DNA from: Methanosarcina vacuolata Z-761
GTDB taxonomy: Archaea; Halobacteriota; Methanosarcinia; Methanosarcinales; Methanosarcinaceae
NCBI RefSeq assembly: GCF_000969905.1
Contig: NZ_CP009520.1
Span: 1,984,001 to 2,048,000 of the forward strand
DNA length: 64,000 bases
Direction of reading: 5' to 3'
Part shown: one piece after another, positions 20,431 to 26,227 of the stretch
Layout of the letters: every line of letters begins with the position of its first letter
How positions within the stretch are numbered: the stretch's first letter is position 1
Position numbers and translations under genes: made by a program
Notes under the pieces: model-generated
The model's database searches: none
Told to the model about the DNA's origin: nothing
Seen by the model: only the letters and a program-made list of their open reading frames with translations

Positions 20431-20972
20431 AATGAGATACAATGAGGTTTTTCCGGATCATAGTCTTCTTCAAAGACTGAGAACGTCATACATTCTTTTC
20501 CTACATTCTGCGCCTATATTTTGGATGCACCACTTTCTCTTCGACCAGGGCTTAGTTTTGCTTTTTTTAAAACAAGCCTGATGCTCTCTTTGTTTATTGT
20601 CTCAAAACCTTCTTTTTTCTGCAATTCTTCAGTCAGCAGTGCAAGTGTCCACTTATTTCTTCCATCAGGAGGTGTAGTACATGCTTGAGCTATGATTTCT
20701 GCAATGTGTTTCTCTGTATATTTTATGGGTTGACCAGTTCTTGGATTATCTTGAAGAGCTCTTTGGAGACCTTCCTCCAAATATCTCTTCTTGGTTCTCC
20801 CAACGGTATTCCTGCCGACATTCAGTATTTCAGCGATCTCCAGATTCTTTTTATTCTTATTTGCAAGTAATAGAATTCGTGCTCTGATCAATTCTCTTGC
20901 ATTTTTCTGTCCTTTTTTAACAAAGTCCTGGAGGTATTGCTCCTCGTTATCTTTAAGTTTGATTTTCACCAT
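20431..20972 (-). pseudogene. IS630-family transposase, frameshifted and truncated
   Basis: The first 152 codons encode the N-terminal helix-turn-helix of an IS630 transposase (LEIAEILNVGRNTVGRTKKRYLEEG, DNPRTGQPIKYTEKH). After LVLKKAKLSP the family sequence continues in the next frame (KPWSKRKWCIQNIGAE, KRMYDVLSL). It then continues in yet another as EDYDPEKPHCISL, close to the first catalytic Asp region. At least two frameshifts plus loss of the DDE domain make this a dead copy. Some IS630 elements use one programmed frameshift at this place, but the second break and the truncation argue for decay. Confidence 0.8.
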
Positions 20973-21096: not shown

Positions 21097-21642
21097 TTAT
21101 ATTGTGACGAAAACCATTGCAGCTACAACCGTGGTCCATTTTCCATCCTTGTCGCCGTTTGCGGTCTGGCACATATGGAATGTGTCAAAGATATGCCCGC
21201 TCGCCTTGTAGACCTGCTCTCTCTCATGCCAGGCCATTTCTGCGTTAAACTCTATTCCAAGGGTGGTCGCAAGCATTGTTGCCGCCAGGTCTTCAGCATA
21301 TTCTCCTGCAATAATTTCTTCTTCTCCAAAAGAATGATGTTCGGAAATGTACCCGTAGTTGTCTTCATTTACAGGAACTGCAGTCCCTATGGCTGCAGCC
21401 ATTAAACGATGAGGCTCATTAGTATCATTCCTTGCAAGTACACAATGGACAATGGCACCAGGTTTTAACTCTGCAAGTCCTTCTTCTCTGGGTACAACTT
21501 TGCAATTCGGGGGCAGAATACTTGAAACACTTACAAGATTGAATTTCTCAATTTTTGCAGCCCTTAGCGCAAGTTCAAAAGATGCTAATCGGTCTTTGTG
21601 TACCCCTGTACCCTTTGTCAAAAATGATTTTTTTGGGATCAT
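21097..21642 (-). CDS. pdaD: Pyruvoyl-dependent arginine decarboxylase
   Basis: PdaD converts arginine to agmatine for polyamine synthesis. The proenzyme self-cleaves between two serines to make a pyruvoyl group; here the site is VSVSSILPP (Ser40-Ser41 from ATG 21642). Other family features are LTKGTGVHKD, FELALRAAKIEKFNLV and the C-terminal GKWTTVVAA. ATG 21642 is preferred over 21684 because AAGGAG lies 6 bases upstream and the family starts at this point (181 residues). A 119-bp inverted-repeat element begins 11 bases above the start, so the native promoter has been displaced. No other polyamine gene adjoins. Confidence 0.93.
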   Translation of the reverse strand: MIPKKSFLTKGTGVHKDRLASFELALRAAKIEKFNLVSVSSILPPNCKVVPREEGLAELKPGAIVHCVLARNDTNEPHRLMAAAIGTAVPVNEDNYGYISEHHSFGEEEIIAGEYAEDLAATMLATTLGIEFNAEMAWHEREQVYKASGHIFDTFHMCQTANGDKDGKWTTVVAAMVFVTI

Positions 21643-21653
21643 GTTAACTCCTT

Positions 21654-21772
21654 CAGGACTTACGCAGTTGAAATGAAGAATCAATAGCTTCAGACCGTTA
21701 ACTGCCTAAAAACCGACTTTAATCCACAGTTTTTGCCTTAATTGATTTTGCTTCTCAAGTGCGTAAGTCCTA
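21654..21772. mobile_element. MITE-like element with about 31-bp terminal inverted repeats
   Basis: AGGACTTACGCA at 21655-21666 is mirrored by TGCGTAAGTCCT at 21760-21771. The similarity extends inward over about 31 bp (to ATCAAT). TCCTT at 21649-21653 and again at 21773-21777 is a direct repeat flanking the element, a plausible 5-bp target duplication. There is no coding capacity. It forms most of the pdaD leader. Confidence 0.8.
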
Positions 21773-21948
21773 TCCTTAAGAGATTTATGCATTTACTGTG
21801 CGGTTTCCATTGTATGAGCAACCGACACATATTATAAAATTTTCAAATTAGTTTAAAAATTTTTTAATTGTTGTAAGTTAAACTACTGAGCTCATAGTTA
21901 TATCTTTAATTTCTGAAACGTAAGCCACAGTTATGAACTTTACCCTTT

Positions 21949-24018
21949 TTACTCATAATTTTCAGAGATAGAGAATTCTCCACAGGAATTGCAACCCAGA
22001 GAATGGACCTGCCTGTTTAGGTCTGTAAAGCCATCATCTTTTTTCCTCTGCCCAGAAAGAGCTTTTTCATAGACATTAGAATTTGCAACCCCTTCAAAGA
22101 TAAATCTTGTCTCTATCGGAATTTCACCTGCATGGACTTTTATATCTTTTTTTTGTACATTAACTGTAACCTGGTCAGGGAGAAGCCCGGATTCGGCCAT
22201 ATAATCAAGAATCAGCTTTCTTCCAAACTCCTCAGCAAACTCCACGGCTTCACTCCGGATTATGAAATGCCTCCTTCCTACAGGTGTGTACACAAAGATC
22301 CCTTTTGTTTTAAGGTCATACTTGGACTCACTGTAAAGCGTGCGTACTGTTATCTCAATGCGTTTTGTCCCTTTTCCTGCAAGAGCTCCAACAGCATTTC
22401 CAACCTCTGAGTGTTCAGGAGCAAAGACTTCGGCATCTATAAGCTTCTTCAGTTCGTCCACATATGCCCTTACAGGTCCTCCAAGCAGGACAACAGGGAT
22501 ATCCACTTTAAAACGAGCGAAGAAATTGCCATCAAGCATTTTTTCAATTTCTTTCCTGTCCACTCCTTCCATCAGAAAAGCAATAAGGTCTCGGGCCATG
22601 TTTCTGGCAAAGAGCCGCTTAACATTTAGGCAGAACTCATCCCTGTCAATCCCTATGAAGTTTGCAAGCAGAGTAGCTCCGATTTCCGAAGCTTCAACAT
22701 TCCATTCAGTATATTCACCAAGCACATGAAGCGCATCTGTTGGGGTAAAACCGATTACCTGAACAAGCCGCTTCTGGATTAGAGAATCCATTACTCTCTT
22801 TGGAGGGAGGATACTTTTGTCCCAGTAGACATCTTTGAGGGAACGCGGTTCATCCCGTATAAGGGCAAGGAGCTCTTTTTCTTCCCGGTTCAAATTGACA
22901 GGTTTCTGCTCTGTCCGGACAAAGAATTTTGTTGCCTGGATATGTTCGTCCAGCTTGAGCCTGTCCGGAATCCAGCGCTTTTTCAGAGTGTTCATAAAAT
23001 CGGGGTACAGGACTGCTGCCCTGCAGAGAGGGATAACCCGCCTGGGGCCTATGTGTATATTGCCACTCTGGACCCAGATATGACTGTCTCCGCCCATAGC
23101 CGAAGTCTCCATACGCAGAGCTCTGACTTTTGTTTGCCAGCCTCCCACAACTGCTCCTGCCTCACTGAGGTCTGGCAGTCCTTTATGGACCAGGGAGACA
23201 TCCGTGCTTGTTCCTCCGACGTCAATTACAGTGCAGGTCTCGTGCCCGGACAGATAGGAAGCTCCAAGGAGACTTGCTGCGGGGCCTGAAAAGACCGATT
23301 CGATGGGTTTTTTCATAGCCTCCTGCATGCTTACTACAGAACCGTCGCAGCGGAGCATGGCAATTCTCGGGTTGAGGCCTCTTCTTTCGATCTCAGTTAC
23401 TATCGTTTTTAAGAAGCCCTCTGCTACAGGCAAGAGCTGGGCATTGAGGTAGGCAGTAACTCCCCTTTCATAAGCCCCGAGCGACTGGGCCAGTTCATGC
23501 CCGCAGACAACGGGCAGCCCTGTCAATTCCTGGATCAGGGTTTTTACACGCAGCTCATGCTCCGGATTTCTCACACTGAAGTAAGAAGAGACTGCAAAAG
23601 CCGATACCCTGTCTTTTATTTCAAGTACGAATTTTTCGACTGCTGGCAGGTCAAGGGCTGCGACTTCTTCGCCATTACTGTCATGCCCTCCCTTTACCAT
23701 AATCCAGTTCTCAATTCCCGAATCTTCAGGAACATCATAATTTCCGATAAGGATGAGCCCAACAGGATATCCTGTTCCTTCAAGAATAGTATTGGTGGCA
23801 AGAGTAGTTGAAACCGAAACTACAGTCACGAGTTTTATCTTTTCCGGGTCAAGTCCGTCAATTGACTTCTTTATTCCTTCTATAGGATCAGGATAAGTTG
23901 TGAGGGCCTTGTTTGAGCATACAACTTTTCCATCCGATTTCCTGATTAAAACCGAATCAGTATAAGTTCCACCTGCATCAATGCCCAGATCATATGCCAT
24001 TTTTGAACTGCATTCCAT
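21949..24018 (-). CDS. Hydantoinase/oxoprolinase family protein (HyuA type), copy 1
   Basis: The 689-residue protein is of the ATP-dependent N-methylhydantoinase A/oxoprolinase family. It has the N-terminal ASKHA phosphate loop LGIDAGGTYTDSVLI, a middle GVTAYLNAQLLPVAEGFL, then SVFSGPAASLLGAS and VIDVGGTSTDVSLV (second phosphate and adenosine motifs). The family cleaves cyclic amide rings with ATP. The partner HyuB and an aspartate racemase, often linked in bacteria, are absent. GTGGAG lies 8 bases before ATG 24018; Met7 (24000) is an alternative start. It is about 50 residues longer at the C-terminus than copy 2. The substrate is unknown. Confidence 0.88.
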   Translation of the reverse strand: MECSSKMAYDLGIDAGGTYTDSVLIRKSDGKVVCSNKALTTYPDPIEGIKKSIDGLDPEKIKLVTVVSVSTTLATNTILEGTGYPVGLILIGNYDVPEDSGIENWIMVKGGHDSNGEEVAALDLPAVEKFVLEIKDRVSAFAVSSYFSVRNPEHELRVKTLIQELTGLPVVCGHELAQSLGAYERGVTAYLNAQLLPVAEGFLKTIVTEIERRGLNPRIAMLRCDGSVVSMQEAMKKPIESVFSGPAASLLGASYLSGHETCTVIDVGGTSTDVSLVHKGLPDLSEAGAVVGGWQTKVRALRMETSAMGGDSHIWVQSGNIHIGPRRVIPLCRAAVLYPDFMNTLKKRWIPDRLKLDEHIQATKFFVRTEQKPVNLNREEKELLALIRDEPRSLKDVYWDKSILPPKRVMDSLIQKRLVQVIGFTPTDALHVLGEYTEWNVEASEIGATLLANFIGIDRDEFCLNVKRLFARNMARDLIAFLMEGVDRKEIEKMLDGNFFARFKVDIPVVLLGGPVRAYVDELKKLIDAEVFAPEHSEVGNAVGALAGKGTKRIEITVRTLYSESKYDLKTKGIFVYTPVGRRHFIIRSEAVEFAEEFGRKLILDYMAESGLLPDQVTVNVQKKDIKVHAGEIPIETRFIFEGVANSNVYEKALSGQRKKDDGFTDLNRQVHSLGCNSCGEFSISENYE

Positions 24019-24304: not shown

Positions 24305-26227
24305 TCAAACTTTTGGCATTCCAACTCCAACGAAAACAAGCTTTGTCTCTAAGGGTACTGCCCCTGCTTCACTAAGAGATATATCTTTTCTACTGACTTC
24401 GATCTGGATCTGCCCTTTGTCGAGCCCGGCTTCGGTCATGTATTCCATGATGAGCTTTCTTCCCAGAACATCGGCATATTCCAGAGCGTCTGGATAGCTT
24501 CCAAAGGTTTCCCTGCCCTGAGGCGAAAACAGAAGAACGAGCCTTTTCTTATCTTTTGAGTAGGCGCTTTTGATCAGGATTTCAATTCTTTTTATGCCCT
24601 TGCCTACAACGGCTCCGACCGCGTTTCCTACTTCGGCATGCTCCGGGATTATGATATCGGCATCGAGAATTTGTTTCAACTCCCTGGTGTATGCAACTAC
24701 AGGGCCTCCTATCAGCACCACAGGGATTTTCATTTTGAACTGTGTAAACCTGTCAGAAAGCAGGATTTTCTCGATTTCGGAGGACGGCACGTCCGTCTGG
24801 ATAAAAGATACCAGGTTTAAGGCCATGTTCCTTGCAACGTCCTGTTTTATCTGTTTGCAGATCTCGATATGGTCGGTCTCGGTATATCGTTCCAGAAGTT
24901 TTGCTCCTACCCTTGAGGCTTCTTGGTCCCAGGCTGTATATTCTCCGAGCACATGAAGCGCATCGGTTGGAGTGAAACCGATTGCCTGGACCAGGCGTTT
25001 TCTTATGAGCGAATCAAGCAGACCCGGAGAAAGCGTTTTCCTGGTCTCCCAGAAAATATCATTAAGCGATGCCGGAAAATCTCCTATCCTGTCAAAGAGT
25101 TCTGCTTCAAATTTTCCGAGGTCTGAGGGTTCAATGCCTGTCCTTACAAAAAACTTAGTAGGTTGCACATTTTCGTCAAGGTGCATAGCTCCAGGAATTC
25201 TTCCTTTTCTCAGGACTTCAAGAAAACCAGGGTATTTAACCGCTGCAACGCAGAGTGGGATAACTCGCCTTGGGCCGATATTTATTTTCATGTTCCTGAT
25301 CCAGACATGGCTGTCCCCTCCCATTGCTGAGGTTTCCATCCGGATAGCTTTTACCTTTGTCTGCCAGCCTCCGACTACAGCGCCCTCTTCACAGAGTTCA
25401 GGAAGCCCGTTTTCGAGCATGGAAACATCCGTACTTGTCCCGCCTACGTCAATAACTGCACAGGTCTCAAGCCCCGAAAGATGGGACGCTCCTACAAGGC
25501 TTGCTGCAGGGCCCGAAAAGATAGACTCGATTGGTTTTTCCAGGGCTTCGTTAATGCCCACTACCGAACCGTCGCATTTGAGCATCAACAGCCTTGAGTC
25601 CATTCCCCGCCTGGAGATTTCTTCCCTGATTGAGCGGATAAACTGGTTTGCAATAGGAATCAACTGGGCATTCAGGTAGGCTGTAATCCCTCTTTCATAG
25701 GCTCCAAGGTCAAGGGAAAGTTCGTGCCCACAGACCACAGGCATCCCGGTAAGTTCCTGGATGCGGGCTTTGACTGCCAATTCATGAGCAGGGTTTCTGA
25801 TACTGAAATAGGACGAGACTGCAAAGGCTGAAACCTTATCCCTAACCTTACTGACAAAAGCTTCCACAGCTTCCATATCAAGAGAAACCAGTTCGGCTCC
25901 GTGATGGTCGTGCCCTCCTTTTACGATAGTATAAAACTCAATATCCTTCCTTTCCGGAATTTCATAATCTCCTACGAGGATCAACCCTACAGGATAGCCA
26001 TTTTTTTCAAGGATTGTGTTTGTAGCAAGCGTTGTTGAGACCGAAACCATTTTTACGTCTTTTAAATATTTCTCATCCAGCCCGTCTATGGAATTTTTAA
26101 TTCCTGTGAGCAGGTCAGGATAAGTGGTAAGCGCCTTGTTCGAATCCATCACTTTGCCATCGGAATCCCGAATGATGATCGAATCAGTATAGGTGCCTCC
26201 TGCATCAATTCCCATGCTGTATTGTAT
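24305..26227 (-). CDS. Hydantoinase/oxoprolinase family protein (HyuA type), copy 2
   Basis: The protein has about 636-640 residues and is strongly similar to copy 1 throughout (MGIDAGGTYTDSIIIRDSDG, SIFSGPAASLVGASHLSG, AVIDVGGTSTDVSMLENG, PTDALHVLGEYT). The first ATG is 26215, but AGGAGG at 26235-26240 stands 7 bases before an ATA codon at 26225-26227 and 19 before that ATG. The frame closes with TAG just above the ATA. The ATA start gives four extra residues, matching the longer N-terminus of copy 1; the coordinates follow that reading. The two genes probably arose by duplication and may act on different cyclic substrates or as a hetero-oligomer, which is inference. Confidence 0.88.
   Translation of the reverse strand: MQYSMGIDAGGTYTDSIIIRDSDGKVMDSNKALTTYPDLLTGIKNSIDGLDEKYLKDVKMVSVSTTLATNTILEKNGYPVGLILVGDYEIPERKDIEFYTIVKGGHDHHGAELVSLDMEAVEAFVSKVRDKVSAFAVSSYFSIRNPAHELAVKARIQELTGMPVVCGHELSLDLGAYERGITAYLNAQLIPIANQFIRSIREEISRRGMDSRLLMLKCDGSVVGINEALEKPIESIFSGPAASLVGASHLSGLETCAVIDVGGTSTDVSMLENGLPELCEEGAVVGGWQTKVKAIRMETSAMGGDSHVWIRNMKINIGPRRVIPLCVAAVKYPGFLEVLRKGRIPGAMHLDENVQPTKFFVRTGIEPSDLGKFEAELFDRIGDFPASLNDIFWETRKTLSPGLLDSLIRKRLVQAIGFTPTDALHVLGEYTAWDQEASRVGAKLLERYTETDHIEICKQIKQDVARNMALNLVSFIQTDVPSSEIEKILLSDRFTQFKMKIPVVLIGGPVVAYTRELKQILDADIIIPEHAEVGNAVGAVVGKGIKRIEILIKSAYSKDKKRLVLLFSPQGRETFGSYPDALEYADVLGRKLIMEYMTEAGLDKGQIQIEVSRKDISLSEAGAVPLETKLVFVGVGMPKV

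Follow-up and report, generated by a model that had tools for sequence, protein, structure and literature searches.

A MITE inserted within the Shine-Dalgarno site of pdaD in three Methanosarcina genomes, with the site restored by the target duplication

The DNA analysed here, called the window, is a stretch of 64,000 nucleotides from Methanosarcina vacuolata Z-761 (contig NZ_CP009520.1, positions 1,984,001 to 2,048,000), and coordinates refer to it unless a genome and contig are named. It carries pdaD on its minus strand, with the start codon at 21640-21642, and the features above this gene are collected in Table 1. The product of pdaD scores 127.8 bits against TIGR00286 (cut-off 106.95) and slightly below the cut-off of NF009064, and a longer frame (21097-21684), which is the pdaD frame read open backwards into a 119-bp element above the gene, scores 207.8 bits against PF01862. 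The list of open frames offers an alternative TTG start inside this element; the orthologs share their start region at the ATG. Upstream of pdaD, next to each other, lie two similar-looking genes of the hydantoinase/oxoprolinase type (21949-24018 and 24305-26215, both minus strand, with the Pfam assignment made on the first). Just downstream of pdaD is a 152-aa frame (20514-20972, minus strand) with HTH_32 and HTH_23 domains that is probably a transposase fragment.

Table 1. Features of the pdaD leader and gene in the window
Feature	Position	Strand	Basis or remark
pdaD, encoding a pyruvoyl-dependent arginine decarboxylase of 181 aa, with an ATG start	21097-21642	minus	PF01862, TIGR00286, ortholog start region
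Shine-Dalgarno (SD) site of pdaD, AAGGAG	21648-21653	minus	Motif and spacing the same in most orthologs; they vary in, for example, G014, G018 and G022
Gene-proximal duplicate of the 5-bp target, forming the core of the SD site	21649-21653		TCCTT on the plus strand
MITE, 119 bp	21654-21772	minus	Sequence, inverted repeat, copies, duplications, ortholog alignment
Distal copy of the target duplication, 5 bp	21773-21777		Plus-strand TCCTT; AAGGA in the direction of pdaD
47-nt native leader block upstream of the MITE	21778-21824	minus	Conserved in most of the genus; putative promoter or leader role
TATA-like AT-rich stretch, attttataat	21831-21840	minus	Above the native leader block; weak candidate promoter

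On the pdaD strand the element reads TAGGACTTACGCACTTGA...CAACTGCGTAAGTCCTG. Its inverted-repeat arms are 31 nt each (21655-21685 and 21741-21771), are 84% complementary and enclose a spacer of 55 nt, with the length of 119 bp counting the outermost C and A in addition to the arms. No gene-length frame of its own is present. When the single strand from 21643 to 21777 is folded the z-score is -5.2, and none of 200 shuffled sequences folds as well. The original prediction of a 119-bp MITE with a TCCTT duplication in the pdaD leader agrees with the sequence itself, with the multi-copy status of the element and with target duplications found across its family, and the terminal repeats of about 31 bp that it described correspond to the two arms. 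It had further placed the insertion next to the ribosome binding site, 11 bases above the start codon. This distance holds (21643-21653), and the position can be refined in that the element lies inside the core of the SD site and not merely beside it.

The element belongs to a dispersed family. The genome from which the window is taken (G000; 4.56 Mb in two contigs) contains 40 matches at E <= 0.001, the pdaD element included, so that the lack of a second copy, which would have spoken against a mobile element, is not what is seen. Matches occur in 29 of 30 Methanosarcina genomes, this genome among them. Forty-six loci of the genome were taken (30 similarity matches, six loci with a lone end and ten that were additionally fetched), and these yielded 34 distinct copies with two ends, the remainder being 11 loci without an end pair and one duplicate. 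The family consensus is 119 bp long and starts with TAGGACTTACGCAC. Nine loci in the same genome that have exact lone ends are mostly decayed copies of the MITE, two of them (L043 and L050) having no second end. Target duplications of 5 bp flank 14 of the 34 two-ended copies as compared with 0.58 expected from permuted flanks. When four genomes are pooled the count is 28 of 68 as compared with 0.82 expected, where two sites present in two genomes each are counted twice and some paired copies with five or six end mismatches are doubtful members of the 68; the G003 copy at pdaD falls outside this number because inserted bases made end pairing fail. These 28 duplications are varied in sequence and are 78% A+T. 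In terms of gene context, as judged with a simple frame caller, a single copy of the 34 lies within a frame, and two, one of them the pdaD copy, have a start no more than 40 bp away; for the 34 copies of other genomes, gene context was taken from 500 bases of flank. This indicates that the family sits between genes and is not crowded near starts. Searching a plasmid collection with the element gave no match, and an Rfam search gave a single sub-threshold match that lies outside the element.

The original prediction had proposed to look for a full-length element that shares the ends of the MITE. One is present in the same genome as an insertion sequence (IS) of 1139 bp (G000:C2:3628302-3629440) that has an open frame of 342 codons and is flanked by a 5-bp GAGGA duplication. 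The left end of this IS has 19 of the 20 terminal bases of the MITE consensus end and the right end has 16 of 20, with an exact MITE-type end at 3629428-3629439; which end of the MITE corresponds to which end of the IS is tentative, as one or two bases decide the assignment. The first lead to this IS was a broken 1139-bp copy in G001 that has the same ends and fragments matching DDE_5 and IS701-type transposase models. The transposase of the open-frame copy scores 400.5 bits against NF049921 (cut-off 250) and falls under the cut-offs of two other IS701 models, NF033540 and NF049999. Relatives of the IS are matched in 21 of the 30 genus genomes. We surveyed IS ends in 19 of 20 regions plus the G001 copy, omitting L182, which is a broken copy; three regions (L183, L188 and L196) are single-ended, and the ends of a fourth (L197) are about 1.3 kb apart, which is beyond the length range that was set. 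Among the 16 two-ended copies the duplication is 5 bp in 11, 6 bp in three, 4 bp in one and absent in one. In the part of PMC2266710 covered here, target duplications of IS701 elements are given as exactly four bp in almost all cases. The partner IS departs from this published criterion, its duplications being mostly 5 bp, and for this reason we call it IS701-like and not a typical IS701 element.

Several further observations concern this group of insertion sequences. The window's genome has six IS matches and a single copy with an open frame. G003 has 86 protein-level matches to the IS701-like element, dozens of them with an identical score, and the size of this count relative to that of the window's genome points to a putative recent burst in G003. 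One IS copy of G003 lies on a plasmid. A second IS branch is found in G002 and G020 (L199:714-1858 and L200:734-1880); its transposases have 58-60% identity, its terminal bases are near-identical to those of the IS and its duplications are 5 bp long. Since this branch has like ends and duplications, mobilisation of the MITE might not be limited to a single transposase.

Taken as a whole, the short length, the inverted ends, the duplication with an empty site, the dispersed copies and the ends shared with an IS indicate that the pdaD element is a MITE. The empty site comes from the comparison of pdaD leaders across the genus. A pdaD-like match is found in all 30 genomes, with an ortholog in 29 and only a more distant paralog in G025. 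The leader alignment omits G027, where a contig end cuts the locus, as well as G008 and G010, which have unrelated leaders and no element. Among the 30 genomes the element occupies the pdaD site only in G000, G003 and G005, and in 23 aligned relatives without it the alignment continues uninterrupted into the SD motif; G016 and G017, both among the 23, have a diverged leader above. The original prediction had noted that the same sequence at orthologous loci of distant species would point away from an insertion, and in other species the site is empty. All three carriers have AAGGA-TAGGAC at the distal junction. At the proximal junction G003 and G005 have GTCCTA-AAGGAG, and G000 has GTCCTG-AAGGAG. 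In a pdaD tree built from the 29 orthologs minus G027 the carriers form one side of a branch with support of 100/99, and a single insertion therefore suffices.

The relatives that lack the element have a single SD motif at the pdaD site. As the five duplicated bases, AAGGA, make up the core of the AAGGAG motif, the element landed within the SD site, and the duplication left a gene-side copy that reads AAGGAG at the old spacing, so that the ribosome binding site was regenerated upon insertion. This SD-restoring placement is the notable part of the locus and is particular to pdaD among the paired copies examined. Specifically, the 15 bases next to 66 other paired copies were scanned, and beside none of these copies is there an SD motif with a start codon after it at the usual spacing; an SD-like motif within this distance occurs beside two of them (L019 in G000 and L231 in G003), in both cases with no such start codon. 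We also considered whether the SD site is a preferred target of the element. This is not supported, given that the duplications are varied and that the other copies lack an SD motif with a start.

The reading that we consider probable is that of a tolerated MITE insertion, in which the SD site was regenerated and a native transcript crosses the element as a hairpin. In this scheme a non-autonomous MITE would have been mobilised in trans by the IS701-like transposase, encoded by the 1139-bp IS with its 5-bp duplication, and would have inserted once, inside the pdaD SD site, in the ancestor shared by the three carriers. The native promoter above the element would most likely still drive transcription of pdaD. 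The message would gain 124 nt, most of which is predicted to fold as a hairpin immediately above the SD site. This hairpin appears to have little effect on initiation, which would be why the insertion was tolerated, and the effect of the insertion on pdaD would accordingly be small as judged from the folding models.

A different view of the same hairpin is that it controls the translation or stability of the pdaD message, through ribosome access, RNase cleavage or protein binding, and has been kept by selection. We regard this as unlikely, although it has a stable hairpin beside the SD site to draw on, and although cleavage by RNase of transcripts bearing a MITE is described for bacteria in the covered part of PMC10969869. 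Folding of the leaders, with the leader start assumed and with the element left out in silico for comparison, gave predicted SD-opening energies of 2.05 kcal/mol with the element and 2.10 without it in G000, 1.66 and 2.05 in G005, and 1.89 and 2.58 in G003. Thus, the predicted opening cost is the same or slightly lower with the element and is raised in none of the three carriers. For the SD bases, the probability of being unpaired averages 0.49 with the element and 0.53 without it in G005, 0.52 and 0.52 in G003, and 0.30 and 0.45 in G000; the lower value in G000, where the SD bases are somewhat more paired and regulation would find some support, arises because nucleotides located above the element are able to pair with the SD site. 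The translational regulation that had been raised as a possibility in the original prediction is therefore unsupported by the opening energies, even though the unpaired probability in G000 drops from 0.45 to 0.30. The placement beside an SD site is also not a habit of the family, as seen from the 66 other copies.

Divergence among the carriers bears on the same question. Between G003 and G005 the element differs by 1.7%, as compared with 12% in the 100 bases above it and 1.0% in the first 100 bases below it. These two copies are the nearest to the consensus of 69 rows (3.4%, with inserted bases uncounted), and they fold at -44.9 and -44.3 kcal/mol as compared with -34.6 kcal/mol for the median copy. 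Their closeness to the consensus and their better fold could mean that the element was kept for a function, and either constraint or a recombined tract would fit their low mutual divergence. Against selection, the G000 element differs from those of the other two carriers by 10.9 and 11.8% where the intergenic DNA above differs by 13 and 14%. As the G000 copy diverges about as much as the DNA above it, constraint is inconsistent across the clade. Two other shared insertions give a further comparison: for one that is shared by G000 and G005 the element differs by 1.7% and its flanks by 5-6%, and for one that is shared by G003 and G005 the values are 7.6% versus 9-16%. A stronger form of the regulatory reading is that the insertion was co-opted in G000, G003 and G005, with the hairpin now acting as a selected leader element that controls pdaD and hence the supply of agmatine and polyamines. 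To this we give only a small chance; if true, it would represent a traceable case in which one step, the arrival of a transposon, turned a plain leader of an archaeal gene into a regulated leader.

It is likewise rather improbable that the MITE supplies the promoter, such that transcription of pdaD in the carrier clade starts inside the element. Any SD-bearing pdaD message that starts more than 11 bases upstream must begin in or above the element, and some bacterial MITEs carry promoters according to the covered part of PMC10969869. However, the best TATA-like match in the G000 element, scored against a consensus, has three mismatches and is equalled by 99.9% of 1000 shuffled sequences, so that it does not exceed what shuffling gives. 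The best matches in the G003 and G005 elements have two mismatches each, as raw scores. Matches in the native region above are also weak (two mismatches in G000 and G005 and three in G003, again as raw scores), and the first best match of the scan in the G000 native region is an AT-rich stretch other than the one in Table 1, also with two mismatches. What argues against a promoter in the element is also that the native leader block above it stays conserved, with the caveat that the native TATA-like match is no stronger than that of the element. The 47-nt block has 3-6 differences per carrier pair versus 12-18 per 80 bases in the next stretch up, the pairs being non-independent. Such conservation within the carriers suggests that the native promoter and leader region still matters. 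The promoter role suggested for the MITE in the original prediction thus finds no support in these data, since the native leader is kept and the TATA-like match in G000 is no better than in shuffled sequence.

The native block, which reads GGTTGCTCATACAATGGAAACCGCACAG..., is kept in most of the Methanosarcina leaders examined and has no Rfam match at threshold. It may be an operator, an initiation region or a structured leader of pdaD.

That the inverted repeat is instead a native and vertically inherited leader structure of an attenuator or riboswitch-like kind, with no insertion having occurred, can be dismissed despite the good fold and the location in a leader, as 23 aligned relatives lack it, the empty site being precise and the target duplicated, as dozens of copies exist elsewhere, and as the one sub-threshold Rfam match lies outside the element.

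The pdaD leader shows cleanly, and with the event located on a tree, how a target duplication lets a transposon enter a ribosome binding site without destroying it. The three carriers and their empty relatives also constitute a natural experiment on what a hairpin does when it lies immediately above the SD site of an archaeal gene. For the archaeal genus Methanosarcina, genetic tools are available.

MITEs of Methanosarcina and other archaea are already known (Kamoun et al. 2013, PMC3852290). As far as the covered part of that study goes, its archaeal MITEs are like the present family in being short, in having inverted ends that resemble a resident IS at the terminal bases only, and in occurring in many copies, and some of these MITEs have target duplications. 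Unlike this family, none of the ten Methanosarcina MITE rows in its Table 4 is about 119 bp long or assigned to IS701. The family may nonetheless be a known one, as the comparison is with Table 4, and 26 archaeal MITEs of an earlier study and 19 unassigned MITE-like repeats mentioned there remain candidates. A literature search with the end sequence returned nothing relevant among the matches listed, and the covered parts of PMC2246112 do not mention these MITEs. With the IS701 family, and specifically its ISAba11/ISMesi2-like branch, the partner IS shares a transposase model (NF049921, well over its cut-off), and its terminal bases are common to the MITE; the MITE differs in having no transposase, and duplications here are mostly 5 bp as opposed to the four of IS701 in the covered part of PMC2266710. 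The covered parts of PMC7760358 give no duplication length for ISAba11. The present work connects a repeat that is widespread in Methanosarcina with a partner of the IS701-like type. Finally, the Correia elements of Neisseria, as described in the covered part of PMC10969869, are likewise miniature, lie just above genes and can join their transcripts. The present family differs from them in that it is not concentrated above starts, and whereas promoters have been demonstrated in Correia elements, a promoter in the pdaD MITE is a candidate reading only.
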